Assembly (NCBI RefSeq): GCF_900104925.1
Contig: NZ_LT629735.1
Span: 3,393,001-3,457,000 of the forward strand
Source: Opitutus sp. GAS368
GTDB lineage: Bacteria > Verrucomicrobiota > Verrucomicrobiia > Opitutales > Opitutaceae
Direction: 5' to 3'
Length of the DNA: 64,000 nucleotides
Shown: positions 6,965-45,068 of the stretch, in pieces
How the letters are laid out: each line of letters starts with the position of its first letter
Numbering within the stretch: position 1 is the stretch's first letter
The notes under the pieces: model-generated
Told to the model about the DNA's origin: nothing
What the model saw: the letters and a program-made list of their open reading frames with translations, nothing else
Databases searched by the model: none
Made by a program: the position numbers and the translations under genes

Positions 6965-8807
6965 GAATAAGACCGAGATCGCCGCCGTTCTGACCGAGAT
7001 CGGCACTCTGCTCGAACTGAAGGGTGAGAATCCCTTCAAGACCCGGGCCTACCAGGCCGGGGCGCGCGTCGTGGAGTCGCTGGGCGAGGACGAGCTCAAG
7101 GCGCGCGTGGCCGACGGCACGCTGCAGGAGGTCAAGGGCATCGGCGAGGCGCTGGCGCAGAAGATCACCGAATTGTCGACGACCGGGCGGCTGGAGTTCT
7201 TCGACCAGCTCAAGGCGTCCGTGCCGGCGGGGTTGGTGGAGATCATGGCCATTCCCGGCATGGGTCCGAAAAAGGTCCGGGCGTTGCAGGAGAAACTCGG
7301 CGTCGACACCATCGCCAAGCTCCGCGCGGCCTGCGCGGAGAACCGGGTGGCGGCGCTCGACGGCTTCGGCGAGAAAACCCAGGAGCGCATCCTGGCCGGC
7401 ATCCGCAACCGCGAGGCCTACAACAAGCGGCACCTCTGGTTCGTGGCCGCCGAGGCGGCGGCACCGATTCTCGCCGGGCTGCAGAAACTTCCCGGCGTCA
7501 AGCAGGTGGAGTCGTGCGGCAGCCTGCGCCGGCGGATGGAGACGGTCGGCGACATTGACTTCCTCGTGGCGACGACCGAGCCGGCGCCGATCGTCGAATG
7601 GTTCGTCACGCAGCCGGGCATCAAGGAGGTCACGGCCCGCGGCGAGACCAAGGCGAGCGTGCGGCTCGAGTCCGGCCTGCAGGCCGACCTGCGGTTGGTG
7701 CCGCCCGAGCAGTTCGTCTTCACGCTGCACCACCTGACCGGCTCGAAGGACCACAACGTCCAGATGCGCCAGCGCGCGCTGGCCCGGGGCTTCAGTATGA
7801 GCGAGTGGGGACTTTTCCCGTCGGACCAGAAGCATGGTCCGACGGAAAAAGAGAAACCTGAAACCGGAGACCTGAGACCTGAGGGGAAAGACAAAAAGAA
7901 ACCCGAATCGCCCGGCGCTTCCTCAGGCTTTCAGGTTTCAGGTTTCAGGTCTCAGGTCTCGGTGAAGACCGAGTCCGATCTCTTCAAGGCGCTCGGGCTG
8001 CACTTCGTCTCGCCCGAACTGCGCGAGGGGCACGGAGAGATCGAATTGGCGGAAAAGGACGCCCTGCCGCAACTGCTGGAGGAGGCCGACATCCGCGGCG
8101 TGTTTCACAACCACACGACGGCATCCGACGGACACAACACCCTCGAAGAAATGGTCGCGGCGACGCAGGCGCTCGGGCTCGACTACCTCGGCATCGCCGA
8201 TCACTCCAAGTCCAGTGTCCAGGCGCGGGGCCTCACCGAGGAGCGGTTGGCGGCGCAGATCGGGGAGATCGGGAAGCTCAACGCCGCGAAGAAATTCAAG
8301 TGCCACGTCTTCACCGGCACGGAATGCGACATCCTGCCCGACGGGAAACTCGACTTTGACCAGGGCATCCTGGCCCAGCTGGACTACACGGTGGTGTCGG
8401 TGCACAGCTCATTCCGGCAGGAGCGCGACGTCATGACGAAGCGCATCATCCGCGCCATCGAGCAGCCGCACGTGACGATGCTCGGGCACCTGACCGGCCG
8501 GCTGCTGCTTGAGCGCGAAGGCTATGAGGTGGACGTCGACAAGGTCGTCGATGCCGCCATCGCCAACGGGGTGGTCATTGAGCTCAACGCCAACCCCTGG
8601 CGCCTGGACCTGGACTGGCGGCACTGGCGCAAGGCGGCGGAGAAGGGCCTGCTGACGAGCATCAATCCCGACGCCCACCGCACCGAGCAGCTGGCCTTCT
8701 ACAAGATCGGCGTCGGCATCGCCCGCAAGGGCTGGCTGACGAAGGATCAGGTCGTCACCACCAAGCCGCTGGCCGCGATGAAGCAGTGGCTCGCGGCAAA
8801 GCGTTAG
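6963..8807 (+). CDS. polX: DNA polymerase X family protein with PHP domain
   Basis: A bacterial PolX: a gap-filling repair polymerase with a C-terminal PHP phosphoesterase (3'-5' exonuclease). From the ATG at 6963 it has 614 residues, a little above the usual 570. In order: the helix-hairpin-helix 8-kDa domain (MNKTEIAAVLTEIGTLLELKG), HhH motifs (VKGIGEALAQKI, IPGMGPKKVRAL), and a palm with CGSLRRRMETVGDIDFLVAT (D-x-D near 198). The PHP domain starts at about 375, with FHNHTTASDGHN, GIADHSK, GTECDILPDG, MLGHLTGR, NANPWR and NPDAHRT all intact. Between palm and PHP, residues about 284-335 are repeat-derived (see 7814-7962), which accounts for the extra length. No operon partners are seen. Confidence 0.93.
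   Translation: MNKTEIAAVLTEIGTLLELKGENPFKTRAYQAGARVVESLGEDELKARVADGTLQEVKGIGEALAQKITELSTTGRLEFFDQLKASVPAGLVEIMAIPGMGPKKVRALQEKLGVDTIAKLRAACAENRVAALDGFGEKTQERILAGIRNREAYNKRHLWFVAAEAAAPILAGLQKLPGVKQVESCGSLRRRMETVGDIDFLVATTEPAPIVEWFVTQPGIKEVTARGETKASVRLESGLQADLRLVPPEQFVFTLHHLTGSKDHNVQMRQRALARGFSMSEWGLFPSDQKHGPTEKEKPETGDLRPEGKDKKKPESPGASSGFQVSGFRSQVSVKTESDLFKALGLHFVSPELREGHGEIELAEKDALPQLLEEADIRGVFHNHTTASDGHNTLEEMVAATQALGLDYLGIADHSKSSVQARGLTEERLAAQIGEIGKLNAAKKFKCHVFTGTECDILPDGKLDFDQGILAQLDYTVVSVHSSFRQERDVMTKRIIRAIEQPHVTMLGHLTGRLLLEREGYEVDVDKVVDAAIANGVVIELNANPWRLDLDWRHWRKAAEKGLLTSINPDAHRTEQLAFYKIGVGIARKGWLTKDQVVTTKPLAAMKQWLAAKR
7814..7962 (+). repeat. Palindrome and two heptamer arrays in frame within polX
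   Basis: First comes a perfect hairpin CCGTCGGACCA-gaagca-TGGTCCGACGG at 7818-7845. It is followed by heptamers GAAACCT/GAAACCG/GAGACCT/GAGACCT (7853-7884). After about 38 bases come complementary-sense TCAGGTT/TCAGGTC heptamers (7923-7961). The two arrays can pair with each other. The segment is translated through (KPETGDLRPEGK and [14 protein letters not shown]) and falls between the polymerase and PHP domains. Confidence 0.9.
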
Positions 8808-9446
8808 CCGCCGGTGTGAAACCTGACGGAGCGCTTGACGCAGAGATGGCGAAGCAAACCTGAGTTTAAAATCTCGGTCTCGGAATATTTCACAGGAGGG
8901 AACAGAGGAAAGGCAGGAGTGATTTATTCCCTTTGGGTTCAATACCCCGGAGCTTGCTCCGGCTTGGATGGAGGCGGGACTATCAGTCCCGCGGGTTGCG
9001 GTCACGCGATGCATGCCTCGCGGGGCTAATAGCCCCGCCTCCATTTTCCGAATGCCCCGGGGCTTGCCCCGGGGATCTTTACTCAGAATCCATTAAACCA
9101 AGAACCGGAAGCATGGCTTTCTGACTTCTGAATTCCTCTGTTAGCTCTGTTATCTCCTGTAAAATGCGTGGGTTTTCACCTTCAGGTCTCAGGTTTCTCC
9201 TCAGGTCTCTTTGCCTCGGTTTCGCCAACCTTCAGGTTTCCGGTTTGCTTCGCCATCTCCGCGCAAAGCGCTCCGTCCGGTTTCAGGTTTCCTCCGTCAC
9301 CGGCCCCCCATCGGGCTGTTTCTCTTCTTGTTCCCGGATTTTACCGGTAAAAATTCCGGCAAGATGGGGCAATTCCGAACCACCACCGGGCGGAGCCGGT
9401 CGATAGGGTCGGTAAGTTGAACCCTCAACCTAGGAGAAAACTGACA
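8808..9446. repeat. Repeat island downstream of polX
   Basis: No gene is supported. Besides the hairpin element at 8944-9076 it holds 'gcggagatggcgaagcaaacctga' repeats near 8835-8865, the 'ctctgttagctctgttatctcctgt' arm near 9137, and TCAGGTC/TCAGGTT heptamers at about 9180-9300. The last 60 bases before 9447 are unique sequence and should contain the promoter and leader of the exported protein. Confidence 0.6.
8944..9076 (-). mobile_element. tnpA-less hairpin element, copy A
   Basis: Inverted relative to copies B and C. It runs from CCCCGGAGCTTGCTCCGG through a nested palindrome (ggaggcgggactatcagtcccgc paired with gcggggctaatagccccgcctcc) to CCCCGGGGCTTGCCCCGGGG. Its outer hairpins and flanking words match those around the IS200-like tnpA at 3018-3540, so it resembles a non-autonomous derivative. 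Confidence 0.75.
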
Positions 9447-10154
9447 ATGAAACGTAAGTTTATGATTAGCATCCTGACAGTTGCCACGCTCAGCGCCTTC
9501 GCCACGATGGCCATGGCTGCCGGGCACGGCGGTGGGGGCGGTGGCGGGGCCGGGGTCGGGGCCGGGGCGGCGATGCCCGCCTTCTCCCACGGACCGGCCA
9601 TTACACCCGCCGTGGGCGCCAATACACCCGCCGTGGGCGCCAGCGCGGGCGGATCCATGTCGGCCCATGCCTCGCCTGAAGCGACCGAAGCGAAGGGCAG
9701 TGACGGCCTGAACGCCAACGCCACCACCCACGCCTCGGCGGAAGGCCAGGCGAACGGCCTGGCCGTGGCCGCCGTCGCCTCGGACCGCACCCGCGACACT
9801 GTGCGCATGGACGAAACCGTGGAGGCGATTCACGCGGCGAAGTTCACCGACCGCGATCAAGTCACCACCGACATCAAGGCGCGTCTTGATGAGTCGGACA
9901 AGCTCGTGGCGGATCTCCGCCTCCGGGCCGCGGCCGCGGGCGACAAATCGCAGGCCGCCTTCGCCAAGGCCCTGGTCGAGGTGCGCGAGCAGGAGAAGCA
10001 GGTCCGGATCAGCCTGAAGGCCGCCACCAAGGCCAAGGACGCGGCCACCTGGGGCTCCGTGCAGTCGGACCTCGCGAAGAGCTACGGCGCCTATGCGCAT
10101 GCGCTCGCGGAGGCCGCGGTGGCCGCCCAGGTAACGCCGGCCCCCAAGTCCTGA
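9447..10154 (+). CDS. Exported Gly/Ala-rich protein of unknown function
   Basis: 235 residues from the ATG at 9447, chosen for its Shine-Dalgarno (aggagaaaactgaca) and the signal peptide it starts (MKRKFMISILTVATLSAF, cleavage probably after AMA near residue 24). The mature N-terminus is low-complexity glycine and alanine with a direct repeat of NTPAVGA (18-base DNA repeat at about 9601-9640). From about residue 120 a charged, helix-prone region begins (DRTRDTVRMDETVEAIHAAKF, ending KSYGAYAHALAEAAVAAQ), possibly coiled-coil. It is a periplasmic or envelope protein by inference. It is monocistronic, with a strong terminator 33 bases after the stop. No family recognised. Confidence 0.8.
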   Translation: MKRKFMISILTVATLSAFATMAMAAGHGGGGGGGAGVGAGAAMPAFSHGPAITPAVGANTPAVGASAGGSMSAHASPEATEAKGSDGLNANATTHASAEGQANGLAVAAVASDRTRDTVRMDETVEAIHAAKFTDRDQVTTDIKARLDESDKLVADLRLRAAAAGDKSQAAFAKALVEVREQEKQVRISLKAATKAKDAATWGSVQSDLAKSYGAYAHALAEAAVAAQVTPAPKS

Positions 10155-10186
10155 AGCCGGTGACGCGTCGGCCGGTGCCAATCACG

Positions 10187-10218
10187 GGCGCTGCGGTTCA
10201 TTCCGCAGCGCCTTTTTT
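10187..10218 (+). terminator. Rho-independent terminator
   Basis: Perfect 10-base stem GGCGCTGCGG / CCGCAGCGCC with a six-base loop (10197-10202), followed by six T residues. It ends the transcript of the exported Gly-rich protein. Confidence 0.93.
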
Positions 10219-11011
10219 AGGTTTCAGCCAGGAGACGAAGAGAGACCTGAGACCTGAAACCTGAGGAGGGTGCAGAGACCTGAGGGGTTCGGAACCTTCC
10301 GGTTTCAGGTTTCTCTTCAGTTCTTGCCCCAAAGTGGGGTCACCACGAAATACACGAAACACACGAAAAGAACACCTCCCAGCAAGCAACCGGTTGTCGG
10401 GTGACTCACCAAACGGTCATTTCGCCACCGTAATGAACTGGCTCCATTCCGCTTTGGATTTCGTGTCTTTGGTGTGTTTCGTGGTTTCCAGCTGAATCGT
10501 TCCGGCTTGGTGGATCTTAGTGGTTAAAATCTCCGCGGCCTCTGTGTTATACCAAACACCCAAAGCTTTTACACGAAGGTCGCAAAGAACGCAGAGATAT
10601 TTCCCCTCGCAGGATCTGCTTCGCGGTCTTGGCGACCTTGGTGTAGAGTGCAGTAGCTTGAGGCGATTGGTATGAGTGGCCAATTAGTGAAGATTAGTGG
10701 TTAAAAATCTCCTTCATCCGTTTGCCCGTGAATCCGCGGGACGACGGAGTTCTCGGGACAAACGCCGGGCGGCAAGATTGAACGGATAAAGACCAAGACA
10801 GGTTTCTTACAGGAGGTAACTGAGGAAATACAGGAGGGGTTGGATTTGTTTCTCTGTTCCCTCCGTTGGCTCCTGTGCAAAGACCATCCGTGTTAATCCG
10901 CTTAATGTTCCTGCACCGCCCATTGGCTGGGTTGATGAAATTTGCGGGCGGACAGATACGGACCCGAGGCGTTGCAGCATTGCGATGGTTCCGGCCCGGC
11001 CTTTTCTCCCA
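10219..11011. repeat. Repeat island between exported protein and VapC
   Basis: No gene. It contains gagacct/gaaacct heptamers (10242-10315), 'caccacgaaatacacgaaacacacgaaaag' (10340-10370), an ATACCAA element (10550-10674), 'gccaattagtgaagattagtggtt' (about 10679), and the 'acaggaggtaactgaggaaatacaggagg' / 'ctccgttggctcctgtg' arms (10810-10880). The last 100 bases are unique-looking, but no signal stands out. Confidence 0.6.
10550..10674. mobile_element. 125-bp ATACCAA element, complete copy
   Basis: It begins ATACCAAACACCCAAAGCTT and ends in the reverse complement of ATACCAATCGCCTC. Imperfect inverted ends share ATACCAA, AAGCT and CAC. Same length and ends as the copies at 34041-34165, 36322-36446 and 47866-47989, in opposite orientation to those. 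It has no coding capacity. Confidence 0.75.
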
Positions 11012-11440
11012 TTATGCTTTCATCGGTCTAAGGCCTAGCGCCGGTGCCGCCAGCGTCTGATGCCGGTCGTAGGTGTAGATTTCGGGCAGGTTGTGGTGCA
11101 CGCCGGTGATCAGGTGGAGACAATCCGCCGCCCGGAGAAATACCGGGACGGGAAGCGTGAGATAGGTCTTGGCGGCCGCCTCGATGATGGCTGCGTCCAA
11201 GGGGAGCCACGTCCAAAACCCTCCGATGTCGTCGGTGTTGAATTGACGGACGGCGGCATCAAATTTTTCGCGAGACCAGACTTTCTCACGTAATTGCCGG
11301 TGAAAAACGCCCATCAACTCGATGCGAACCAAATCCGACACGAAGCGCTGGTCATCTTTTTCGAGCAATGCCCGCACGGCCTTCGATTCGGCCTCGACCA
11401 CATAGAGCTTGGCGACCATCGATGTGTCGCAAAAAACCAT
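11012..11440 (-). CDS. vapC: PIN-domain toxin VapC
   Basis: A predicted Mg2+-dependent endoribonuclease toxin of 142 residues. PIN-domain acidic residues are visible: D5 in MVFCDTSMVAKLYV, E41 in RIELMGVF, an aspartate in LRAADCLHLITG (about 105) and another in YTYDRHQTL (about 124). It lies 3 bases downstream of its Phd-like antitoxin gene, so the two are co-transcribed and probably translationally coupled. The likely target is an RNA such as tRNA or rRNA, which cannot be inferred. It is intact. Confidence 0.9.
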   Translation of the reverse strand: MVFCDTSMVAKLYVVEAESKAVRALLEKDDQRFVSDLVRIELMGVFHRQLREKVWSREKFDAAVRQFNTDDIGGFWTWLPLDAAIIEAAAKTYLTLPVPVFLRAADCLHLITGVHHNLPEIYTYDRHQTLAAPALGLRPMKA

Positions 11441-11443
11441 GGC

Positions 11444-11698
11444 TCAGCGGTCACCGCGGATTTCGTCCAACGCTGCCTGGATGGTGTCGCCCGGAGCCTC
11501 GGCCATCATCGCCTCATATTCCGGCAGCACCGTGCGCTTGCGGTTTACCGGGCGAAGCAGCGACCGGTTGACGAGCACCGCCACCTCCTGTCCACGATCG
11601 GTGATGGGAACCGGGCGTTTCAAGGCCCCCGCACGCCGCACCAGGGCACCGGTGTCGTCGTGGAGTTGCTTGATGGTGAGAACAGTGGTTGCCGGCAT
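11444..11698 (-). CDS. Phd/YefM-type antitoxin
   Basis: 84 residues starting MPATTVLTIKQLHDDTGALVRRAG, the typical Phd/YefM N-terminus that both binds DNA and dimerises. The middle reads PITDRGQEVAVLVN, and a charged C-terminus (PGDTIQAALDEIRGDR) would wrap the VapC toxin. The frame is open upstream to 11815, but the ATG at 11698 matches family starts and sits 6 bases after a predicted -10. It should repress its own promoter. Confidence 0.82.
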   Translation of the reverse strand: MPATTVLTIKQLHDDTGALVRRAGALKRPVPITDRGQEVAVLVNRSLLRPVNRKRTVLPEYEAMMAEAPGDTIQAALDEIRGDR

Positions 11699-11733: not shown

Positions 11734-12436
11734 GAGACACAGAGACACAACAGTGACATTGGTATTTAACCGGCCGTCCCAAAGCGTTGGTTTTGCGATC
11801 GCCTATAGTGGGCAAAATCAGGCCAACTGATCCACTTGAGTCAGATGGATAGACGGAAACCTGAGGGACAAGGCCAAGGCATTTACCACGGATAACACGG
11901 ATGGTCTTTGCACAGGAGCCAACGGAGGGAACAGAGAAGTAAAGATCCCCGGGGCAAGCCCCCGGGGCATTCGGAAAGTGGAGGCGGGGCTATTAGCCCC
12001 GCGAGGCATGCATCGCGTGACCGCAACCCGCGGGACTGATAGTCCCGCCTCCATCCAAGCCAGAGCAAGCTGCTCCGGGGTATTGAACCCAAAGGAAATA
12101 AACCCAACCCCTCCTGTATTTCCTCAGTTACCTCCTGTAAGAGACCTGCCTTGGTCTTTAAAGGAGGCCTGAGGGACAAGGCCAAGGCATTTACCACGGA
12201 TAACACGGATGGTCTTTGCACAGGAGCCAACGGAGATAACGGAGAGTGCTTCCAACCACCTCCAGCCTTTCCTCAGTTTCCTCCTGTGAGAAACCTGTCT
12301 TGGTCTTTATCCGTTCAATGTTTCTGCACTGCCCATGAGCACCCGTGACAGTCACCCCTTCGCTTTAGCTGCGGGGCAACGCCTTCCGGCTTCGCCATCT
12401 CCGCGCCAGGCGCTCCGTCAGGTTTCTCCTCCGGCC
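11734..12436. repeat. Repeat island between phd-vapC and the VirK-like gene
   Basis: No gene. The block 'aaggcatttaccacggataacacggatggtctttgcacaggagccaacgg' occurs twice (about 11875 and 12182), first followed by the hairpin element at 11945-12083 and then by a shorter variant. The 3' part has 'cactgcccatgagcacccgtgacagtcacccc' and 'ttcgccatctccgcgccaggcgctccgtcagg'. It closely resembles 13570-14000. Confidence 0.65.
11945..12083 (+). mobile_element. tnpA-less hairpin element, copy B
   Basis: Left hairpin ccccggggcaagcccccgggg, a nested palindrome around gaggcatgcatcgcgtgacc, and a right end gagcaagctgctccggggta. Flanks (agtaaagatcc, tattgaacccaaag) are those of the IS200-like element at 3018-3540. 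Copy C is almost identical. Confidence 0.75.
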
Positions 12437-13522: not shown

Positions 13523-14200
13523 ACGCTGATTCCGGCGTAGGGCTTGGCCTTACCGAGCTGAGAGACAAGGCCAGGGCATTTTACCACGGATTGCACGGAT
13601 ACCCCGGATGGTTTTTTGCACAGGAGCTAACGGAGGGAACAGAGAAGTAAAGATCCCCGGGGCAAGCCCCTGGGGCATTCGGAAAGTGGAGGCGGGGCTA
13701 TTAGCCCCGCGAGGCATGCATCGCGTGACCGCAACCCGCGGGACTGATAGTCCCGCCTCCATCCAAGCCGGAGCAAGCTGCTCCGGGGTATTGAACCCAA
13801 AGGAAATAAATCCAACCCCTCCTGTATTTCCTCAGTTTCCTCCTGTAAGAGACCTGTCTTGGTCTTTATCCGTTTAATGTTCCTGCACTGCCCATGAGCA
13901 CCCGTGACAGTCACCCCTTCGCTTTAGCTGCGGGGCAACGCCTTCTGGCCTTGCCATCTTCGCGCTGTCGCGCTCCGTCCGTGAAATCCGCCTGCCAGCC
14001 AAAGGCCTGGCGACGGCTGGTGGTCAAAAAGGCTCGGGTGTGAGGATCAGAAGTTTTGTTCAAAATGAATTGAAGTATGCGGGTTTCTCCGCCTGACTGC
14101 CCGGGCCATGAACCCGAAACCCGCCGTTGCTGGTTGGCTGTTATTCGTTGTTGGTTCGACCCGGCAACCCTCAACCCTCAACCCATAACCCTACCGCCAG
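13523..14200. repeat. Repeat island upstream of the GbsR-like gene
   Basis: No gene. It carries the same order of blocks as 11870-12430: accacgga...cacggatgg, acaggagctaacggaggg, the hairpin element, cctcctgtatttcctcagtttcctcctgt, and cactgcccatgagcacccgtgac. At 14165-14192 there are four heptamers (CAACCCT, CAACCCT, CAACCCA, TAACCCT) just before the next gene. Confidence 0.65.
13652..13790 (+). mobile_element. tnpA-less hairpin element, copy C
   Basis: Almost the same sequence and orientation as copy B (11945-12083), differing mainly in the left hairpin (ccccggggcaagcccctgggg). The nested palindrome with the ggaggcggggctattagc arm is unchanged. No coding capacity. Confidence 0.75.
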
Positions 14201-14848
14201 ATGTCATCGTCGGTTGCCATTGATCGGAATCACGGCCTGGTCCTGCCGGGCAACCGGCCTGGGGCGGTGGTCGCCTTCGAGCGCGCCATGGTGGACTTCT
14301 TCGTCGACGCGGCCGAGCTGCTCGGGGTGCCGAAGTCGGTGGCGGCGATCTACGGCATCGTGTTCGCCTCGCCGGCGCCGCTCAGTTTCGCCGACATCGG
14401 GTCGCGGCTCGATATCAGCAAGGGCTCCGTGAGCCAGGGGCTGAGGGTTCTGCGGGAGGTCGGGGCGTTGCGGGCCATGAGCGTGGAGCCGGGAGCTGGG
14501 AGCCTGGAGCTGGGAGCTGGGAGCGTGGAACCGGGAGCTGGGGGCTCGAAGCTCAAGGCTGGTAGCGCGAAGCTCGAAGCTGCCACACCGCCAGCGCGCG
14601 GTGTTTTGTATGAGCCCGACATCGAGATGCGGAAGCTCATCGCGCGTTTCATCGAGCAGCGCCTGCAACGGCAGCTCGAGTCGGGGAAGGGGAAGCTCAA
14701 GGTCCTGGCCCGGGGCGCCGCGGCGTTTGCCGCCCCGGACCAGAAGGTGATGCAGCAGCGCCTGAAGAAGCTTTCGCAATGGCACGACCGCACGCGGGCC
14801 CTGCTGCCGATCGCCCGCACGTTCTTAAAGCTGGGAGCAGGGAGCTAG
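14201..14848 (+). CDS. GbsR/MarR-like transcriptional regulator with heptad insertion
   Basis: 215 residues. The N-terminal half is a winged helix: FERAMVDFFVDAAELLGVPKSV, AIYGIVFASPAPLSF, ADIGSRLDISKGSVSQGLRVLREVGALR, which matches the GbsR-like branch of MarR proteins. The C-terminal half is helical (DIEMRKLIARFIEQRLQRQ) and probably dimerises. Residues about 95-128 are a heptad repeat (EPGAGSL, ELGAGSV, EPGAGGS, KLKAGSA) encoded by 14 DNA heptamers and sit where the wing and linker should be. The last residues, LKLGAGS, again come from heptamer DNA. It stands upstream of the polysaccharide genes, so a role in their control is plausible but inferred. Confidence 0.82.
   Translation: MSSSVAIDRNHGLVLPGNRPGAVVAFERAMVDFFVDAAELLGVPKSVAAIYGIVFASPAPLSFADIGSRLDISKGSVSQGLRVLREVGALRAMSVEPGAGSLELGAGSVEPGAGGSKLKAGSAKLEAATPPARGVLYEPDIEMRKLIARFIEQRLQRQLESGKGKLKVLARGAAAFAAPDQKVMQQRLKKLSQWHDRTRALLPIARTFLKLGAGS
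14485..14582 (+). repeat. Fourteen 7-bp repeats in frame in the GbsR-like gene
   Basis: Fourteen contiguous heptamers of the form GGAGCTG and variants (GGAGCCG, GGAGCGT, GAAGCTC, AAGGCTG). Three units encode seven residues, giving the EPGAGSL-type heptad peptide. Confidence 0.95.
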
Positions 14849-15692
14849 GAGCATGGAGCGAAGCGCCGAGAGACCTGACGGAGCCGCGAGGCGGAGATGG
14901 CATTGCGCAGCAATGGCCAAAGGCCGACTGAATCGGGCGCCCGTCGGGCAGATGAAGGAGCAAACCTGAAAATTTAACACGGAGATCGCAGAGAGCGCGG
15001 AGCAAAACCCAAGACATTTTTAACCACACGAAGCGCGGCAGCGCGGAGATGGTCACCAGCAAGGTGACCCCGGAGCGAAAGCTAAGGGGTGACTGGCGCG
15101 GGTGCCCCTCCGGGCAGCGGCGGGAACAAATGACACGGATATACACGGATGATGGACGAGGAGCAGGGACGCAGCGCCGCAGCGCGGAGATGGCGCGCGC
15201 TTTGCCGCGTAAGCCCCGGAGCGACAGCAAAGGGGTGTCCGGTGGCGGGAGCCCTGTGGGCGCTACAGGACACAACTAAGAGCATGGAGATGTTGGCCAC
15301 AAAAAAGCACAAAGAACGCAAAAAATAGAAAACGTATTTAACGCGGAGATCGCAGAGAGCGCAGAGACCGAACTGTAGGAGGGGCTTTAGGCCCCGATGG
15401 GGCAAGGGTAGGGCGAATTGACCAGAGGACGGAGGACGGAAGACGGAGGACGGAAGACAGAAGACAGAGGACAGAGGACAGAGGACGGAGGACGGAGGAC
15501 GGAGGACGGAGGGTAGAAAGCCGATGACAGAAAAATCCAACGAACCAGCCGGTTGCTTCCACCAGGAAGTGACCAAGCGAAGCGCTGTGCGCATCGCTTG
15601 GGGTTATGGGTTAGGAGTTATTTGTTATTGGTGGGACGTTCGGGACTGACAACTCTCAGCTGATAACCAAGAACCGCAGCTCGGCTGCTCCC
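14849..15692. repeat. Repeat island before the epimerase
   Basis: No gene. The segment holds 'agacctgacggagccgcgaggcggagatgg', 'aacacggagatcgcagagagcgcggag', 'cacacgaagcgcggcagcgcggagatgg', a tgtaggaggggctttaggcccc element (about 15375), the heptamer array at 15425-15515 and gttattgg/ggttatgg words at about 15600-15635. Many short frames here are read from repeats and are not genes. Confidence 0.65.
15425..15515. repeat. Array of thirteen GAGGACG-type heptamers
   Basis: Thirteen contiguous 7-bp units: GAGGACG, GAAGACG, GAAGACA and GAGGACA in mixed order, ending GAGGGTA. Related ggaggac units occur in frame in the epimerase gene 1 kb downstream. Confidence 0.95.
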
Positions 15693-16925
15693 ATGCCCAA
15701 TAACCCTCAATGTCTAACGAATAACGGCAGCAACTGTTACTTGGTAACAGGTGCTGCAGGCTTCATCGCCGCCCGGGTCTGCGAGCTCCTGCTCGAGGCC
15801 GGGCACACCGTCGTGGGCGTGGACAATCTGAATGATTATTATGATGTGAGGCTGAAGGACTATCGCCTCGCGAAGTTATTGGGAAGGAGTTATGAGTTAG
15901 GCGGGGATGCGAAAACATCCATCTTCTCCAATAACAAAGAACCCTTAACGCATAACCGCTTCGAATTCCGCGTGCTTGATATCGAAAACCTCAAAGAGGT
16001 CGACGAGCTCTTTGCCACGCGGAAGTTCGAAGCCGTCTTCAACCTCGCCGCCCGGGCCGGCGTGCGCTACAGCCTCGAATTCCCCGAACTCTACCGCCGC
16101 ACGAACGTCCTCGGGGAGGAGAACGTGCTCAAGTGCCAGGTGAAATACGGGGTGACGAAGCAGGTGCTGGCGTCGAGTTCCTCGGTTTATGCCGGGTGTC
16201 CGATGCCCTTCACGGAGGACCGGCCCTTGCAGGTCGCGCAGTCGCCCTATGCGGAGACCAAGAAGCAGGCGGAGGCCCTGGCCCATGATTATCATCGGAA
16301 GCACGGCCTGGACATCACGGTGCTGCGTTATTTCACGGTGTTCGGCCCCGCCGGCCGGCCCGACATGGCGCCGCTGCGTTTCATCAAGTGGATTGACGAA
16401 GGCACGCCTATCACGCTCTACGGCGACGGCTCGCAGGCCCGGGACTTCACCTACGTGGACGACATTGCGCGAGGAACAATTTTGGCGGGAAAATTGTTCG
16501 GAGGGCGGATGACGGAGGACGGAGGGCAGATGCCGGACGGCGGAGGGCGGATGACGGATGACGGAGGACAGAGGGCAGCTGGCAGAGGTCAGCCGTCAGC
16601 CGTCAGCCATCAGCCCTTGGCTCCCGGCTACGACGTCATCAACCTCGGCGGCGGCCGCAACCCGATCAGCATGATGACCGTGATTGGGTTCATAGAGCAG
16701 GCGCTCTATGACAGAGGACGGAGAACGGAGGACGGAGGACGGATAAAGGCGAAGATTTCGGGCCAGCCCTCCAGCCCGGCCGATATGGCCGCCACCTGGG
16801 CCGACATCGCGAAAGCGAAACGGCTGTTGAACTGGCAGCCGGAAGTCAGTCCGGAGGACGGTTTCCGCAAGACCGTGGATTGGCATGTGCAGAATCGGGA
16901 CTGGTTGAGAGGTATCAGGTTGTGA
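15693..16925 (+). CDS. NAD-dependent nucleotide-sugar epimerase with repeat insertions
   Basis: An extended SDR of the UDP-glucuronate/UDP-galactose 4-epimerase kind, supplying a nucleotide sugar for exopolysaccharide. Landmarks: LVTGAAGFIAARVCELLLEAG (NAD loop), VDNLNDYYDVRLKDYRLAKL, FNLAARAGVRYSLEFPELY, the catalytic SPYAETKKQ (Y-x-x-x-K), and LRYFTVFGPAGRPDMAPLRF. The VDNLNDYYD stretch favours UDP-glucuronate 4-epimerase. Length is 410 rather than about 330, because repeat-derived segments are translated: 15884-15960, 16500-16618 and 16708-16745, plus a repeat-like N-terminus (MPNNPQCLTNNGSN). The 3' part is duplicated at 17967-18486 behind a VapC cassette. Whether the enzyme is active with these loops is unknown. 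Confidence 0.85.
   Translation: MPNNPQCLTNNGSNCYLVTGAAGFIAARVCELLLEAGHTVVGVDNLNDYYDVRLKDYRLAKLLGRSYELGGDAKTSIFSNNKEPLTHNRFEFRVLDIENLKEVDELFATRKFEAVFNLAARAGVRYSLEFPELYRRTNVLGEENVLKCQVKYGVTKQVLASSSSVYAGCPMPFTEDRPLQVAQSPYAETKKQAEALAHDYHRKHGLDITVLRYFTVFGPAGRPDMAPLRFIKWIDEGTPITLYGDGSQARDFTYVDDIARGTILAGKLFGGRMTEDGGQMPDGGGRMTDDGGQRAAGRGQPSAVSHQPLAPGYDVINLGGGRNPISMMTVIGFIEQALYDRGRRTEDGGRIKAKISGQPSSPADMAATWADIAKAKRLLNWQPEVSPEDGFRKTVDWHVQNRDWLRGIRL
16500..16618 (+). repeat. Seventeen 7-bp repeats in frame in the epimerase
   Basis: Seventeen contiguous heptamers running GGAGGGC, GGATGAC, GGAGGAC ... to AGCCGTC, AGCCATC, AGCCCTT. They encode heptads such as GGRMTED and GGQMPDG. The paralogous array at 18068-18179 has sixteen units. 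Confidence 0.95.
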
Positions 16926-17569: not shown

Positions 17570-17571
17570 GG

Positions 17572-17966: not shown

Positions 17967-18486
17967 AAGGCACGCCCATCACGCTCTACGGCGACGGCTC
18001 GCAGGCCCGGGACTTCACCTACGTGGACGACATCGCGCGGGGAACAATTTTGGCAGGAAAATTGTTCGGAGGGCGGATGACGGAGGACGGAGGGCAGATG
18101 CCGGACGGCGGAGGGCGGATGACGGACGACGGAGGGCAGATGTCAGATGTCGGACGTCAGCCGTCAGCCGTCAGCCCTTGGCTCCCGGCTACGACGTCAT
18201 CAACCTCGGCGGCGGCCGCAACCCGATCAGCATGATGACCGTGATTGGGTTCATTGAGAAATCTCTGAATAGGCTCCGTGCTCCCGGCTCCACGCTCCCT
18301 GCTACTAAGGCAAAGATTTCGGGCCAGCCCTCCAGCCCGGCCGATATGGCCGCCACCTGGGCCGACATCGCCAAGGCCAAGCGCCTGCTCGGCTGGTCGC
18401 CTCAGATTACTCCCGAGGAAGGCTTCAAGCGCACGGTCCAGTGGCACATCGACAACCAGCGGTGGTTGAGCGACATCAGGGTGTGA
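17967..18486 (+). pseudogene. Second copy of the epimerase 3' part, frameshifted
   Basis: It resumes at GTPITLYGDGSQARDFTYVDD, the point matching 16399 in the intact gene, and runs to the end of the protein. The first portion is nearly identical to the intact copy. The final 30 codons differ (LLGWSPQITPEEGFKRTVQWH against LLNWQPEVSPEDGFRKTVDWH), so it is a diverged paralogous end. Its heptamer array at 18068-18179 has 16 units instead of 17, shifting the frame: the upstream part reads in one frame and APGYDVINLGGG in another. It has no start of its own. Confidence 0.88.
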
Positions 18487-36034: not shown

Positions 36035-36110
36035 GGCGTGGTGCTGAGCGTGCCAAGGGCAAAGAGCTAAGAGCTAAGAGCTAAGAGCAGGGAGCAGGGA
36101 GCAGGGAGTA

Positions 36111-36220
36111 AGCTACTACACTCTACACCAAGATCGCCAAGACCGCGAAGCAGATCCTGCGAGAGGAAATATCTCTGCGTTCTTTGCGGCCTTCGTGTAA
36201 AAGCTTTGGGTGTTTGGTAG
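36111..36220. mobile_element. ATACCAA element, 5'-truncated copy
   Basis: Begins inside the element at agctactacactctacacc and ends at ggtgtttggtag instead of GGTAT. Its start abuts the GAGCTAA/GAGCAGG heptamer array. Confidence 0.6.
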
Positions 36221-39485: not shown

Positions 39486-40904
39486 TCAGTAAGCGTTCCG
39501 TCGACGGAAAAACGTCAGAATCATTATCTGCACATCAAACCAGAAGGACCAATTCTCGATGTAGTAAAGGTCGTAGCGAATGCGCTCGACCAGGCTGGTA
39601 TTGCCCCGCAGGCCGTTGACCTGGGCCCAACCGGTCAGGCCGGGGCGCACTTCGTGGCGGGGATTGTAGTGGGGAATCTCATGCTCGAATTGCCTGATCA
39701 GTTCGGGGCGCTCGGGCCGTGGGCCGACCAGACTCATGTCGCCTTTGAGGATGTTCCAGAATTGCGGCAGCTCATCAAGATTCCATTCGCGCATGAAGGC
39801 CCCGATCTTGAGCCGCCGCGGGTCGGCGGCGGTCGCCCATTGCGGGCCGGAAGCGGCTTCGGCATCGGCGCGCATCGAGCGAAGTTTGATGATCGTGAAC
39901 GGGCGGCCATGCAGGCCGGTCCGCACCTGCTTGTAGAACACCGGGCCCGGGCTTTCCCGTCTGATAAGGAAGGTGAAAAGCAGCATTAGTGGGGTCGAGA
40001 GCGTCAGTCCGATCAGCGCTCCGCCGATATCCATGAGGCGCTTGATGATCTGATTGGGCACGCTGTGCAGCGGGATCTGCTCTATGCCCAGCAGAGGCAC
40101 ACCGGAGACGGTTTGCATGCGCAGGCTGGAGACAAATACCTGGAAAAAAGACGGGATGACCTTGAAGTCCACATATCGCCGTTCACACACCGCCGCAATG
40201 CGCCCCAGCTCATCCCGGGAAAGGTCCAGGTCGGCCACCACGATGATATCAACGAGGTGCTGGTCCAGGATTTGATCGAGTTGATCGGCTGATCCGAGCC
40301 GCTTTTGTTCGCGACTGACCTGGGTCTCGGTCGCTGGGGTCGTGATTACGCCGTAGACGGAATACGGATGATTCTTATCACTAAGAATGGCCTGGGTCAG
40401 GCTTTCGGCCTCTCCGCTCCAGCCGACAAGGGCAACCCGCTGAGTGATGCGTTCCCGCCACTCGCTGCGGGAAAGGATATAAAAAAACGAAAACCGCCAC
40501 AACAACACGGCCACCAGCGTGGTCAGGCAGGATACGGCCACGAAAATGCGCGAGATGGCGGGATCAAACTTCAGGATCAACGAGGTGCTGAGAAACAGGG
40601 CGAACCAGAAAAAGGTGCCGCGCAGGATGATATTGGCCGAGCGATGGGGTCGGAGCAGAAGACGGGCGTCATACAGGCTCAGGAAAGCATAGCTGATCAC
40701 GAAAAACCCGGCGCCGAGGAAAAGGAGCTGGTTGTAGGTGGCGAAGGTCGAACCGATGTCCTCGACGCCGAGAGCACGCAGAGGAGAGTTGAACCTGAGC
40801 CAATAACCGGCACAGAGGCCAAGGTAACTGACGAGCAAATCCCCCAATAACTGGAGGGTTACGAGGAGTCGCTGGGATCGCGGATAGGAACGCTTGCCGG
40901 GCAT
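39486..40904 (-). CDS. WcaJ-like undecaprenyl-phosphate sugar phosphotransferase
   Basis: The initiating (priming) enzyme of repeat-unit synthesis: it transfers hexose-1-phosphate to undecaprenyl phosphate at the inner membrane. From the ATG at 40904 (MPGKRSYPRSQRLL) it has 472 residues; the frame is open to 41021. Four N-terminal membrane helices, a CoA-binding-like middle (VALVGWSGEAESLTQAIL) and the C-terminal transferase with RRESPGPVFYKQVRTGLHGR, FTIIKLRSMRADAE, REWNLDELPQFWNILKGDMSL, VGPRPERPEL and RHEVRPGLTGWAQVNG are all present. It is last of three minus-strand genes and serves the plus-strand glycosyltransferases. Confidence 0.93.
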   Translation of the reverse strand: MPGKRSYPRSQRLLVTLQLLGDLLVSYLGLCAGYWLRFNSPLRALGVEDIGSTFATYNQLLFLGAGFFVISYAFLSLYDARLLLRPHRSANIILRGTFFWFALFLSTSLILKFDPAISRIFVAVSCLTTLVAVLLWRFSFFYILSRSEWRERITQRVALVGWSGEAESLTQAILSDKNHPYSVYGVITTPATETQVSREQKRLGSADQLDQILDQHLVDIIVVADLDLSRDELGRIAAVCERRYVDFKVIPSFFQVFVSSLRMQTVSGVPLLGIEQIPLHSVPNQIIKRLMDIGGALIGLTLSTPLMLLFTFLIRRESPGPVFYKQVRTGLHGRPFTIIKLRSMRADAEAASGPQWATAADPRRLKIGAFMREWNLDELPQFWNILKGDMSLVGPRPERPELIRQFEHEIPHYNPRHEVRPGLTGWAQVNGLRGNTSLVERIRYDLYYIENWSFWFDVQIMILTFFRRRNAY

Positions 40905-41020
40905 GGTGGTGTGCGGGAGGAGATAGAAGCGACGACGCTCACAGGGCGAGGAGAAAGCTGAGGCCAAAACAGCACCGGGCTTCAGGACCCACGCCCCGGG
41001 TTTGACCGGGATAGACGACA

Positions 41021-43411
41021 CTAGCGCAGACGATATTCAAGCGAGAGAAAAGTTTCCTCGGCGAACTTCAAACCATCAGGCCAAGGCAGCTCCACCTCGA
41101 TGCGTTGGGGTTTCCCCGGGGGAAGCGCCGACACGATCACAGCGAGGCCCTCGGGGGTGCGCGTGACTTGGGCGCCTTGCTGGCCAAAGAAACCGCCGGT
41201 TTCGGTCATGGGCGCTTCTTCGGTGGCGCGGGGCCGCTCCGCAATGACTTTTGCCTCCGGCTCCAGGCTCCCAGCTGCAGGCTGACGCAGCAGCCCAGCC
41301 ACAACCTTCGTATTCATCCCGCCAATGTCGGGGATAAACGATGTCACGAATCGCGCCGGAGAAATTGCCTTGTCGTCCGGTGTAAACAAGACGGGTGAGG
41401 CAATGCGCTCATAGCGGTCGCCGGCTACCTGGATGATGACGGTGACTTCGCGGCGTTCGTTGGGCAGGAGCGTTAACGCGGAGGACACGGAGCGTCCGGA
41501 AGAATCGGCCGGCGCGCCAGGGACAACCGGTGCCATCGTCGCCGGCAGGATCAGCCTCCCGGAGACCGGCTTGTTCGATAGGTTATACAGCATGATCTTT
41601 CCCCGGCCATATCTGCTGCGGCCCCCCAATGCCTTGCTCTCGGTTCCCAACGCAATCAACCGCACCCACCGGAATTCAAAGGTTGCCGGCAATTGCTTCG
41701 GATAAAACACCAGCACCAGCGACCGGGGCCGGTTGTCCTTGAACCGCCAGGGCAGTTCGGCACGGCCATAAAACGACATGGTGAAATTGCCCGGTGGTTC
41801 CAGGTATTGCTGCCATTCCGGCGTGGCCAGCCGGGTGGGATAGACTTCGTAGAGATTGCCGTTCTGGGTTCTGACCTGAACCATGAACTCTTCAGCCTTG
41901 GCAGGCTGACTCTTGGTTGTTGGCTGCTGGTTGCCGGGCATTGCCGGTTTAGTCTCCGGCTCCTTGTCTTGTCGCGCCGAAGCCCCGGCGGAGGCGGCTC
42001 CCGAGCCCTCCGTAAGCCCGGTGACAAAACTTCCATGGTATCTTTTGATCGGGGAGAGTCCGTCACCGGCGAGAAAGTCGAGCACGATGGGGGAGGGCAC
42101 GGAAGTCGCGACCGCCCAGGAACGGTTTTGGTTGGTAGCGGTTGGTTGTTGGCTGGCTGGATCGTTTTTGTAGCTCCCTGCTCCCGGCTCCTTGCTCGTA
42201 GCTCTTTGCGCAAGCCACCAGGCCAAAGCGGGAGTCGCTTCATTGCCACCGATTCCCCCCCCAATCATCTTCATCCAAGGCTTTATTTCAGGTTTCAGGT
42301 CTCCGGTCTCAGGTTTCTCCGCAAAATCCTTCGCCGTGTAATTGATTCCGCCGGCAGTCCAACCCTCCGGTTTCAAGTCTCTCTGCCCGCCGCCGGCCGG
42401 GACAGATACCGGGTTGGCAGCAGCCAACAATGGCACGGTTTGCTTCGCCATCTCCGCGCCAGACGCTCCGACAGGTTTCTGCAGTGGCGCCACCGCCAGC
42501 CCATACTCCGAGATATCGTATTCCAGATATGGCTGCAGATAGAACGCCATCGGAGCGTCGGGTTGCAGTATCGCAATCTGCTCGCTGATTGACTTGAACC
42601 AGCGCCATTGCCGCAGGCGTCCGTCCTTGGTATCCCGCGCCTGCTTGTCGAGCATGCCATAACCGATCTCAGTCATGAACACGGGAAGGGTTTTTTCCAC
42701 ACCATGAACAGAATTACCCGAACCATTCGGTAAGTTCTGGCCACCCAGGTCAGCGACCGCGCGTTCATGCTGTTTGTAGACGGCGCTGAAATCATCGGAA
42801 TACCCATAATAGTGGTAGTTGTAGCCATCGGTGTAGGCGAAGCCGTCGTTGGCGGCGAAGCGCTCCAGCCACGGGCCGGGTGGCAAGCCCAACGAGCCCA
42901 TGAGCACCAGTCCTGCCTTGCTTTCGGCTCCACCCTCTTGGATCCCTGCTTTCAGACCGAGATAGGTGGCCTTCAGAAAAGCCGCATAACGTTCGGCCGC
43001 TTCCGGCACGAAGCCGAGGTCGGGTTCGTTGTCCACTTCCCAGGCATCAACCAAATCACCATAAGCGGCACCCAGTTTGCGGCTGTTTGCATATGTCTCG
43101 CGCAGATCTTCCGGCAGATATTTCCTTTTCCAATTCTTCGTTGGAAGGCGCAGCAGGACGCAGGTCTTCAAGTGGCGGGTGTGCAGCCTCTCGAGTGCAT
43201 CCCGGGTGGAATGCATGAGGACACTGTCGGTTGGATCGGCGATCCCGCGGATTCTCATCCAGCCGGCGAACTGCGGGCTATCCGGCTCTGAAGCCAACTG
43301 GTGTTCAAGCCCGATCGCATCAAGGCCCGTATCGATCCCCAAGCCCGGGGCAATCTGGCCAGAACCGAGGATGGCCAGGGCGAGGATCGTAACGAAGCCG
43401 GAGCGAGACAT
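41021..43411 (-). CDS. Exported glycoside-hydrolase-like protein with repeat insertions
   Basis: 796 residues from the ATG at 43411, which starts a signal peptide (MSRSGFVTILALAILGSGQ); the frame is open to 43612, but that part lies inside the neighbouring gene. The first half is a TIM-barrel glycosidase (clan A, GH39-like): YGDLVDAWEVDNEPDLGF with acid/base E in N-E-P, and PVFMTEIGYGML with a nucleophile E. The second half is beta-rich. At least five heptamer arrays are translated in the middle and C-terminal part (41254-41286, 41912-41940, 42124-42161, 42172-42206, 42286-42320), and near 42370-42480 there is a copy of the longer 'ttcgccatctccgcgcc' repeat. It probably trims or releases the polymer. 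Confidence 0.8.
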   Translation of the reverse strand: MSRSGFVTILALAILGSGQIAPGLGIDTGLDAIGLEHQLASEPDSPQFAGWMRIRGIADPTDSVLMHSTRDALERLHTRHLKTCVLLRLPTKNWKRKYLPEDLRETYANSRKLGAAYGDLVDAWEVDNEPDLGFVPEAAERYAAFLKATYLGLKAGIQEGGAESKAGLVLMGSLGLPPGPWLERFAANDGFAYTDGYNYHYYGYSDDFSAVYKQHERAVADLGGQNLPNGSGNSVHGVEKTLPVFMTEIGYGMLDKQARDTKDGRLRQWRWFKSISEQIAILQPDAPMAFYLQPYLEYDISEYGLAVAPLQKPVGASGAEMAKQTVPLLAAANPVSVPAGGGQRDLKPEGWTAGGINYTAKDFAEKPETGDLKPEIKPWMKMIGGGIGGNEATPALAWWLAQRATSKEPGAGSYKNDPASQQPTATNQNRSWAVATSVPSPIVLDFLAGDGLSPIKRYHGSFVTGLTEGSGAASAGASARQDKEPETKPAMPGNQQPTTKSQPAKAEEFMVQVRTQNGNLYEVYPTRLATPEWQQYLEPPGNFTMSFYGRAELPWRFKDNRPRSLVLVFYPKQLPATFEFRWVRLIALGTESKALGGRSRYGRGKIMLYNLSNKPVSGRLILPATMAPVVPGAPADSSGRSVSSALTLLPNERREVTVIIQVAGDRYERIASPVLFTPDDKAISPARFVTSFIPDIGGMNTKVVAGLLRQPAAGSLEPEAKVIAERPRATEEAPMTETGGFFGQQGAQVTRTPEGLAVIVSALPPGKPQRIEVELPWPDGLKFAEETFLSLEYRLR
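42124..42320 (-). repeat. Three heptamer arrays in frame in the GH-like gene
   Basis: Array 1 (42124-42161): ttggtag/cggttgg/ttgttgg units. Array 2 (42172-42206): AGCTCCC, TGCTCCC, GGCTCCT, TGCTCGT, AGCTCTT. Array 3 (42286-42320): TTTCAGG twice, TCTCCGG, TCTCAGG, TTTCTCC. They are read as NDPASQQPTATNQNRS, SKEPGAGSYK and PETGDLKPE. Each uses a different heptamer sequence. Confidence 0.9.
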
Positions 43412-43422
43412 GCGGGTCGCGC

Positions 43423-44958
43423 TTAATTTGCGTCCAACTCGACCCAGCGGGCTGACAAGGCAACCAATGCCATCCAGGTGACGAGGATCGCCGGGCACTG
43501 GAAGGGAAAATCGAACCACGCATGCGCGAGTGCCTGGCTGCAGCCAATCAATACGGGCACCGCCAACGAGTGCCAGACGGCCCGGCTCCGGTAGAAAGCT
43601 CTCAACCACCAACCCGCACCTAACAACAGCAGCAGTGTTCCCGTTGCCCCCAGCTCGATCGGGATTTCCCGCCAGTCGCAGTGGGCGTGCTCCCAGAAGA
43701 GTTTTCCCCCGGCATAGACCTCCGGGTAGAGCTTAATGTATTCGGGGAACAGGTAACGGAAGCCCCCAGCCCCCACACCACGCACCCAAGTATTTCCGAG
43801 CATTTTTGACGAAGCGGCGTGAGCCATTAATCGCGCCGGCGTGCTATCATATCGGGAATCGTCATGATGATTGATCAGGAAATCGAAACGCTGCTGAATC
43901 GAAGAAAAATCCACCTCGCTGACGGTGAAACCGATCACGATGAGAAACAGCAGGACCACCGCGGCATAGACAACAGGACTTGTGCTGCCCCCGGATTGAT
44001 TGTGCCGGCGGCTCAACCAGAACCAAGCAGCCACGGCCATCCAAGCGAACGTCACGAGAAGGCTGGCTCCGCGCGAGAGAGAAAAAAAGACTGCGGCGGT
44101 TAGGAATACCGCACAGAAAAAAAGCAGCCCGGCCGGAGTGGATTTTCGGCCGGCGCGCTCGCCTTGGGAGAAAGTCCAGATCGCAAGAGACACGGCAAGG
44201 AAGGTGACGAGGCCGAAGTAGGCGCCGGCGTGATTACGATAAATGAAACTGGCAAAGGCGGTATGCCCGACCGGCCACTCCATAAGGAACAAGTATTTGC
44301 TCGAGCCGGAAAATCGCTGCACGAAACCCACGCCGGCCAGCAGCATGGCGTTGGCCAGCAGCACGGTAAGCAGGAGTTGCAGCGAGCGCCGGCGGGTGAA
44401 TCCGGTCCAGACGGTGCACACGGTCAGCCAGGCGGAGGCGTAGATGATGAACTGCCGCCAGATGTCGAAGCGCTCAAAGGGCGTATCAACCGAGGTGGGC
44501 AGCCAGGGGATGTCGTCCACCCGGCGCAGCCACCATTGCGTGGCACTGCGCTCCCACACCCAGGAGGGATTGGAGGCCTGCAGGGCGATGTAGCCGAGCA
44601 GGGCGAGTCCGATCCAGAAAATGGGGAAATGCAGCAGGCGGGGCAGCGGGTTAAGACGGAAACCTGAAACCTGAGACCTGAAACCTGAAGGCTGGCCATG
44701 GCCAGTGGTCAACTGAATGCTTGGGGCATAGTCTCCCGAGTAGGTCCGCGGGATCAGGGCCAACACCAGGCCCACGGCGCTTAGCGCCAGGCTGGTGAGC
44801 TGGCTCCAGGCGTGCATCGTGCCGAGGGCCCACGGGAGAAAGCAGAGGTGCACCGCTACTACGGTCAACACCGCCTTCTCCAACGGATGTAAAGGAAGGC
44901 GGCGCTTGGAGGCTCGAAAGTGTTCGAGGACGCGGCTGGGAGACTGTTCAGCGTTCAT
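43423..44958 (-). CDS. O-antigen ligase family membrane protein
   Basis: 511 residues with about ten membrane helices (AVLTVVAVHLCFLPWALGTM, LALSAVGLVLALIP, FPIFWIGLALLGYIAL and others). The Wzy_C region has HTAFASFIYRNHAGAYFGLV, then GNTWVRGVGAGGFRYLFPEY and EHAHCDWREIPIELGATGT, with the conserved histidine and following acidic residues. It polymerises or transfers polymer chains at the periplasmic face. Residues about 85-99 ([16 protein letters not shown]) come from five GAAACCT-type heptamers at 44659-44693. Its first 29 codons have a diverged second copy at 45069-45155. First gene of the minus-strand trio with the GH-like and priming enzymes. Confidence 0.87.
   Translation of the reverse strand: MNAEQSPSRVLEHFRASKRRLPLHPLEKAVLTVVAVHLCFLPWALGTMHAWSQLTSLALSAVGLVLALIPRTYSGDYAPSIQLTTGHGQPSGFRSQVSGFRLNPLPRLLHFPIFWIGLALLGYIALQASNPSWVWERSATQWWLRRVDDIPWLPTSVDTPFERFDIWRQFIIYASAWLTVCTVWTGFTRRRSLQLLLTVLLANAMLLAGVGFVQRFSGSSKYLFLMEWPVGHTAFASFIYRNHAGAYFGLVTFLAVSLAIWTFSQGERAGRKSTPAGLLFFCAVFLTAAVFFSLSRGASLLVTFAWMAVAAWFWLSRRHNQSGGSTSPVVYAAVVLLFLIVIGFTVSEVDFSSIQQRFDFLINHHDDSRYDSTPARLMAHAASSKMLGNTWVRGVGAGGFRYLFPEYIKLYPEVYAGGKLFWEHAHCDWREIPIELGATGTLLLLLGAGWWLRAFYRSRAVWHSLAVPVLIGCSQALAHAWFDFPFQCPAILVTWMALVALSARWVELDAN
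44659..44693 (-). repeat. Five 7-bp repeats in frame in the O-antigen ligase gene
   Basis: GAAACCT, GAAACCT, GAGACCT, GAAACCT, GAAGGCT contiguous on the plus strand. The gene is read on the other strand as GFRSQVSGFR, the same heptad peptide as in PolX ([12 protein letters not shown]). Confidence 0.95.
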
Positions 44959-45068
44959 TTTTCAATGTCCATTGGTCATATCGGACCAAGCGAACGCAGG
45001 TGATGCGACTGAGCATTTCGGGAAATGACTGGTGAACATTGAACGATGAACAATGAACATTTGGTGCC

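Follow-up and report, generated by a model that had tools for sequence, protein, structure and literature searches.

Why should tandem arrays of quite different sequence, lying close to each other in one bacterial genome, all be built from units of exactly 7 bp? This question is raised by a stretch of 64,000 bp from Opitutus sp. GAS368 (bases 3393001-3457000 of the single 4,150,783-bp contig), here called the window. A preliminary description of this DNA had listed twelve such heptad arrays and had suggested a copying process with a 7-nucleotide (nt) step rather than the spread of one repeat. For the present work the window, about 10% of the same genome (labelled G000) and a number of short loci were read, together with sequence from relatives. 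Our tentative answer is that the arrays may be dispersed heptad cassettes of about 30 bp, standing singly or as inverted pairs with the purine-richer arm first, which have been inserted at many sites across the genus and are made by copying in 7-nt steps. This answer is drawn from the period itself, from the length and phase of one array family (GAAACCT), from the polarity of the pairs, from an excess of hairpins beside the arrays and from the presence or absence of arrays at orthologous codons.

Arrays were called with Tandem Repeats Finder and a lag-match scan. All twelve arrays of the preliminary description were recovered at, or a few bases from, their earlier positions, the array given as 36064-36112 being found as 36052-36108 and thus starting 12 bp earlier. 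At a lenient threshold the window contains 24 period-7 arrays. At a strict threshold it contains 13, as compared to none in five shuffles, which rules out a chance origin, and the other periods from 4 to 30 yielded at most two arrays each, save for the harmonics 14 (n = 6) and 21 (n = 5). The same strict threshold was applied to 400 kb of G000 taken as 20 evenly spaced stretches. Period 7 was represented there by five arrays, shuffled sequence by none and any other period by at most two; period-7 arrays are about 16-fold enriched in the window relative to this sample.

With a more lenient score, period 7 was the largest or joint-largest class in all eight sequence sets analyzed. Its share amounted to 14 of 19 arrays in the window, 10 of 28 in the G000 sample, 12 of 23 in the congener G009, 3 of 8 in G018 (a tie with period 9), both arrays of G002, 2 of 3 in five other genera of the family and, in spread stretches of G016 and G003, 1 of 1 and 3 of 11, respectively. 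Shuffled controls contained a single period-7 array over all eight sets and between 0 and 4 arrays of any period per set, so that the small sets (G016, G002 and the other genera) carry little weight. The GAAACCT pattern described below is without a match in G002, G009 and G018, whose heptads are therefore other words. The preliminary description had proposed to plot unit length for the complete genome and relatives; in the genome sample and the sets from relatives covered here, 7 leads or shares the lead. Its notion of a fixed period with free sequence is likewise borne out, with period 7 leading even in these three congeners, several of the sets being small, and with orthologous codons that hold different heptad words in different lineages. 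Descent of all words from one repeat is rejected, as the words are unrelated, also in the congeners lacking GAAACCT arrays.

The statement that adjacent families run into each other in phase was found to be correct inside the composite array 16499-16629, where the match rate is 0.53 at lag 63 as compared to a mean of 0.27 for lags outside the multiples of 7; in locus L217 of the congener G016 the phase fades within about 40 bp. This locus (15071-15539) carries the longest composite array seen in a congener, about 470 bp of heptads with a word that shifts every few units.

Anatomy of the cassettes

The spread of one repeat, which the preliminary description had set aside, does apply to the GAAACCT family, a dispersed and phase-locked unit of about 30 bp; the other words are unrelated. 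TTTCAGG is the reverse complement of GAAACCT, and the TTTCAGG and GAAACCT/GAGACCT arrays are thus one family on opposite strands, which makes up four of the twelve arrays listed earlier and eight arrays in the window. Within G000 it is present at no fewer than 24 distinct places, and a 21-base pattern (at most two mismatches) gave 83 overlapping matches. Among G000 and 56 relatives, the same pattern occurs in 16 genomes, of which 11 belong to this genus, and the backwards control in 3 of the 57. A 27-base pattern, again with at most two mismatches, occurs in 30 of 288 genomes of the phylum (backwards control, 3). In one-per-species genomes, at least 120 stretches contain the exact 27-base pattern, and among 80 named matches listed are Bacteroidota, Planctomycetota, Acidobacteriota, Cyanobacteria and Chloroflexota. 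After masking of GAAACCT in 120 of these foreign loci, which were chosen for holding this word and are not a random sample, the best period of the arrays that were left was 7 in 34 cases, 14 in 7, 21 in 7 and 8 in 15, with at most 3 for any other period and none in shuffled sequence. One Planctomycetota contig (L088) has several 8-bp arrays beside 7-bp arrays, and a second favoured step of 8 bp may exist.

In genus sequence, 48 of 76 arrays of the GAAACCT class start, on the purine strand, with the G of GAAACCT, and a length of 30-32 bp, i.e. four heptads plus 2-4 nt, is found in 43 of the 76; the class follows a loose rule, which also lets in a small number of arrays of the CAAGT, TCCAACC and CAACCCT types. 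A GAAACCT match was the reason for fetching many of the loci, a selection that should fix neither phase nor length. Tandem arrays grown locally should start in any phase.

Genus sequence amounting to 1.42 Mb yielded 29 inverted pairs within 120 bp, 17 from the GAAACCT family and 12 of other words, and in every one of them the purine-richer arm comes first. A looser count up to 250 bp gave 30 purine-first and 2 pyrimidine-first pairs and 3 pairs with both arms on the same side of the purine threshold. The material includes 20 genus stretches picked mainly for GAAACCT arrays and in some cases for pairs; the other stretches were unselected for arrays. Pairs of other words in the foreign loci are purine-first as well (7 of 7). 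The 28 genus pairs examined have no common interior sequence, and their spacers measure 7 to 80 bp. Direct repeats of at least 3 bp flank 10 of the 28 pairs (36%; 3-5 bp) as compared to 207 of 756 mismatched controls (27%; 3-6 bp). Inverted arms are present, yet their sequence varies between families and many arms are single. Comparison of the flanks of the 28 pairs with one another gave 13 short matches, four with lengths of 29-72 bp, which indicates that some pairs lie beside other dispersed repeats.

Hairpins were scored as perfect stems of at least 7 with loops of 3-9, no more than 45 bp from an array end, for 155 arrays of up to 60 bp; longer arrays and arrays near locus ends were left out. 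Of the 155 arrays, 26 have such a hairpin at the purine-strand 5' end and 8 have one at its 3' end (p = 0.002); moving outwards on the 5' side, the number falls to 3 at 50 bp and to 2 at 100 bp (26 vs 3, p = 6e-6). Relatedness between arrays from the same genus makes both p values too small. In a previous set of 119 arrays, 23 hairpins stood on the 5' and 6 on the 3' side, with 3.6 expected at random places. Judged by eye, 13 listed rows with strong hairpins differ in sequence, save for two copies at 6527 and 6909 that belong to a duplicated locus.

Arrays inside conserved genes

Several arrays lie in-frame within protein genes, and the corresponding sites were scored as filled or empty by eye on alignments. 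The linker of the polX-like gene was readable in 20 of 21 genus genomes (G010 is without sequence there). Four of the 20 carry inserts with three different words, namely a GAAACCT pair in G000 and G004, a CAACGCC array in G014 and a GCAAAGN pair in G019. The remaining 16 have no clear array; G017 shows a short GAGGACG-like run.

For an epimerase gene 25 loci were fetched, of which 18 were aligned for site 1 and 19 for site 2, the extra locus (L282) being the G000 gene, copy 1, again. At site 1, which precedes a YxxINLGGG motif, arrays are present in 4 of 18 gene copies and absent from 14. They read CGGAGGN to CAGCCNN in G000, CGAGCTN followed by GCTCAAA in G011, TCAACCC in G014 and TCAGCTC with a hairpin in a G018 paralogue. 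Site 2 is without an array in 16 of 18 copies. Three different words are found there, GACGGAG in G000, a GCAAAGN pair in G019 and GCTCCNN in a second, partial copy of the gene in G000. The G000 GACGGAG array stands behind a hairpin that is not seen in the other rows, and G019 has GCAAAGN at both polX and the epimerase.

The partial epimerase copy near 17970-18360 is near-identical to copy 1 over about 390 bp (4 of 90, 1 of 80 and 1 of 55 positions differ in its left, central and right flanks, respectively). The site-1 array measures 117 bp in copy 1 and 110 bp in the partial copy, which makes the latter one unit shorter, and several of the units are altered. At site 2 both copies have 52 bp, but word and orientation are not the same.

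The third gene, open reading frame (ORF) 14201-14848, gave only weak Pfam matches to helix-turn-helix (HTH) domains; we take it to be a GbsR-like regulator. Eight loci were put in, of which L249 was removed by a word filter and two were second pieces of the same genes. Only G000, one of five genomes, has the array; the four congeners lack it, and the G007 match is contiguous across the site. These comparisons suggest that conserved enzymes in several lineages gain new loops from heptad blocks.

Explanations for the 7-bp step

Any explanation has to account for the 7-bp step, for the limited length and for the word pool, which is common to the loci within a genome and at the same time specific to the lineage. 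Neither local slippage nor the spread of one repeat explains everything. Local slipped-strand repeats, i.e. a few old ancestral arrays whose words drift and whose slippage loops are too large for mismatch repair, would account for the long homogeneous GAGACCT arrays of 78 and 102 bp at two G000 loci, for the difference of exactly one unit between the two epimerase stretches and for the likeness of the site-1 words TCAACCC, TCAGCTC and TCAGCCN. Mismatch repair is good on loops of 1-3 nt and poor on larger ones (PMC4060949). Slippage predicts neither the phase-locked length of about 30 bp nor the single polarity of the pairs. Nor does it predict that a genome should carry one word at no fewer than 24 places, or that arrays should occupy codons without an array in most congeners; periods of 5, 6 and 8 should moreover be nearly as frequent as 7. 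It supplies just the 7-bp step, and this in part, and we regard it as a rather unlikely explanation of the whole. A transposable palindromic element whose ends happen to be heptad arrays would provide the word pool, but not the free sequence. Such an element, resembling Rickettsia palindromic elements (RPEs), repetitive extragenic palindromic (REP) sequences or miniature inverted-repeat transposable elements (MITEs), could be moved in trans, for example by a Y1 transposase of the IS200-like insertion sequences, and fixed-polarity pairs, dispersed copies and in-frame gene inserts are what it would produce. Y1_Tnp gave nine matches in G000, one of them at window 3045-3500 (-), and matches in 16 of 21 genus genomes; GAAACCT matches are found in 10 of the 16 genomes with and in 1 of the 5 without it (Fisher p = 0.15), a weak association. 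The lack of a common interior, the unrelated end sequences and the many lone arms speak against this possibility, perhaps together with the frequency of flanking direct repeats (36% as compared to 27% in the controls), as does the distribution of the enzyme: G019 has cassettes yet no Y1_Tnp match at E <= 0.001 (the genome is 91% complete), and G018 has seven matches yet no GAAACCT match. We consider a transposable element unlikely. The Y1 transposase in the window has a second match of equal score elsewhere in the genome.

If a reverse transcriptase added repeats from an RNA template, as telomerase or DRT10 do, the templated step would fix the period and permit any word. In DRT10, a non-coding RNA is the source of added tandem repeats of 9 nt (PMC12632851), and G011, G017 and G020 have arrays and one RVT_1 match each. 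The search for a polymerase or reverse transcriptase working in 7-nt steps, which the preliminary description had recommended, came back empty for this domain in the genome concerned: RVT_1 (PF00078) has no match in G000, nor in G003, G004 and G016, each rich in arrays, and is present in 4 of 21 genus genomes. A genome would in addition need many templates for its many words, and we think this origin very improbable. Hardly more credible is selection of the arrays as signals, such as terminator hairpins or sites for a protein that reads DNA in 7-bp steps. Pairs can fold, hairpins adjoin some arrays and the TAACTGA repeats of Beggiatoaceae have been proposed as binding sites (PMC4679880), but arrays also lie in coding regions, with different words at one codon.

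We therefore lean, with reservation, towards cassettes inserted at many sites across the genus and copied in 7-nt steps. The 7-bp step would then be set by how the cassettes are made and not by descent from one sequence, and each genome appears to use a small pool of words and to copy them to new sites. A hairpin behind the 3' end of a growing DNA strand might pull this end back by about 7 nt, over and over, giving short re-copying. At a two-ended break, a purine-strand array could form on each side, which would give the convergent order observed. Words might then be spread by copying from other loci in trans, and ordinary slippage may afterwards lengthen some arrays. The re-copying half is a guess from hairpin side and polarity.

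A number of observations weigh against this scheme. In the foreign loci, 120 in number and from other phyla, most GAAACCT pairs run the other way from those of the genus: pyrimidine-first pairs outnumber purine-first ones by 33 to 1 when scored by word orientation within 200 bp, and by 19 to 8 when scored by purine content within 120 bp. Hairpins on the 3' side are as frequent 50 and 100 bp further out (8 and 8 of 155) as at the array end, and on the 5' side not even a 6-bp stem is present in 119 of the 155 arrays. In polX the array-side half of the hairpin looks native by eye and fits a simple snap-back poorly. Hairpin slippage alone would give a local word at each site, which leaves over the recurrence of one word at 24 or more places. 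No enzyme for cassette making was found, RVT_1 being absent from G000, and exact 27-base searches of viral contigs gave no 7-bp excess over a 6-bp control (GAAACCT 6, reversed word 10, GAGGACG 3, 6-bp control 75, 8-bp control 1; the 75 matches are perhaps a coding repeat). The four insert-bearing epimerases have neighbouring residues in common at site 1, where the insertion may be ancestral with a later change of word. As to the two epimerase stretches of the window, 16 of 100 and 37 of 150 positions differ to the right of the near-identical block, and no clear match exists to its left. With so abrupt an end to the likeness, recent replacement is no better an explanation than gene conversion around arrays that were older and already different, and we have given this pair less weight than the cross-species cases for that reason.

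Heptameric repeats as such are already on record in bacteria, and the new part is the anatomy of the cassettes. According to PMC4692102, such repeats have been known to be over-represented among bacterial repeats since a finding of 2007, with no detailed literature as of 2015. The earlier remark that no counterpart is known can thus extend no further than this bacterial group; our literature search, judged on titles and the openings of abstracts, found no such cassettes named in the group. A 7-bp tandem unit above chance and its dispersal, which in the 400-kb sample extends to words other than GAAACCT, are features of heptameric simple sequence repeats (SSRs). The GGGNATC repeats of Xanthomonas and Nostoc, the heptanucleotides of Calothrix and TAACTGA in Beggiatoaceae share the 7-bp unit, the dispersal and the mostly short arrays (PMC4692102; PMC4679880), and the Xanthomonas/Nostoc repeats favour four units, like the present cassettes (PMC4692102). 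The SSRs covered by these sources comprise one to three words per organism, whereas here we see many unrelated words, pairs of one polarity and words that differ at one codon. RPEs resemble the arrays as dispersed palindromes within protein genes (PMC10969869), and in-frame insertion was found here in polX, the epimerase and the HTH regulator. RPEs are described there as defined families of about 150 bp with a conserved peptide; the arms found here are about 30 bp long, have no common interior and are free in sequence, and no family of the RPE kind was seen. Short many-copy palindromes and the Y1 transposase genes of G000 recall REP sequences and their REP-associated tyrosine transposases (RAYTs); among the 13 listed rows with strong hairpins, no common sequence was seen by eye outside the one duplicated locus. 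Telomerase and DRT10 are alike in their fixed repeat step with a template-set sequence; the DRT10 repeat is 9 nt (PMC12632851), and G000 lacks an RVT_1 domain. A link to triplex DNA was dropped, as PMC4666352 describes other motifs.

The patterns of polarity, length, hairpins and orthologous sites make the cause of the 7-bp excess testable. It is a doubtful extension that the genus, and perhaps many phyla, possess a DNA-writing activity other than a recognisable reverse transcriptase, which would lay down blocks of about 30 nt in 7-nt steps, often near hairpins and with the purine strand running inward from both ends, supply new words over evolutionary time and edit the loops of conserved proteins. 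If true, it would be a previously undescribed repeat-synthesising process.

Features of the window

The arrays and the genes that carry them are collected in the table. An Rfam search of the window at gathering scores gave no matches.

Heptad arrays and associated genes in the 64,000-bp window (positions counted from its first base)
Feature	Position	Strand	Remark
GAGACCT-family cassette, 4.4 units	1464..1494	+	
GAAACCT-family cassette (TTTCAGG on +), hairpin abutting	6527..6558	-	inside 224-bp repeat 98% identical to 6758-6981
GAAACCT-family cassette, identical to 6527-6558	6909..6940	-	
polX-like gene (HHH, DNA_pol_B_thumb, PHP domains), inverted pair in linker	6954..8807	+	
Purine-richer arm of inverted pair, in-frame in polX	7853..7883	+	not in most orthologues examined
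Pyrimidine-richer arm (partner of 7853-7883), in-frame in polX	7929..7960	-	
GAGACCT-family array, 3.3 units	10242..10264	+	
CAACCCT array	14165..14191	+	
GGAGCNN array, in-frame in HTH-regulator ORF 14201-14848	14479..14581	+	absent from 4/4 congeners aligned
GGAGCNN array spanning end of HTH-regulator ORF 14201-14848	14829..14859	+	
GAGGACG array, 12.6 units	15425..15512	+	
Composite CGGAGGN to CAGCCNN array, in-frame in epimerase ORF 15693-16925, site 1	16499..16615 (up to 16629)	+	
Epimerase site 2, copy 1: hairpin and GACGGAG array, 52 bp	16694..16745	+	
Site-1 array of partial epimerase copy, 7 bp (one unit) less than in copy 1	18067..18176 (up to 18190)	+	
Site 2 of partial epimerase copy: GCTCCNN array replacing GACGGAG, 52 bp	18255..18306	-	
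AAGAGCT to GAGCAGG array	36052..36108	+	
GCTCCNN array	42173..42209	-	
GAAACCT-family cassette	42286..42317	-	
GAAACCT-family cassette	44659..44694	+	
TGAACAA array	45033..45059	+	inverted word at 45140-45175

Other inverted repeats were noticed in the window as well. A second class is found at 6653-6778, 48711-48834, 46589-46839 and 49025-49204, the first two being near-identical; its members carry ATTTCACAGGAGCC, CAAGGCATTTT or the like as outer motifs, with imperfect repeats, for example of the CACGGAT and CACGAAG types, further in. Perfect inverted repeats with AGGGAGTGTTTTCAAAC lie at 6202-6348 and 52872-53061, with 109 and 154 nt between the arms, respectively. Near-perfect palindromes with 25-26 nt between the arms are present at 4454-4535, 8968-9044, 11979-12053 and 13687-13761, the last three of which are alike.

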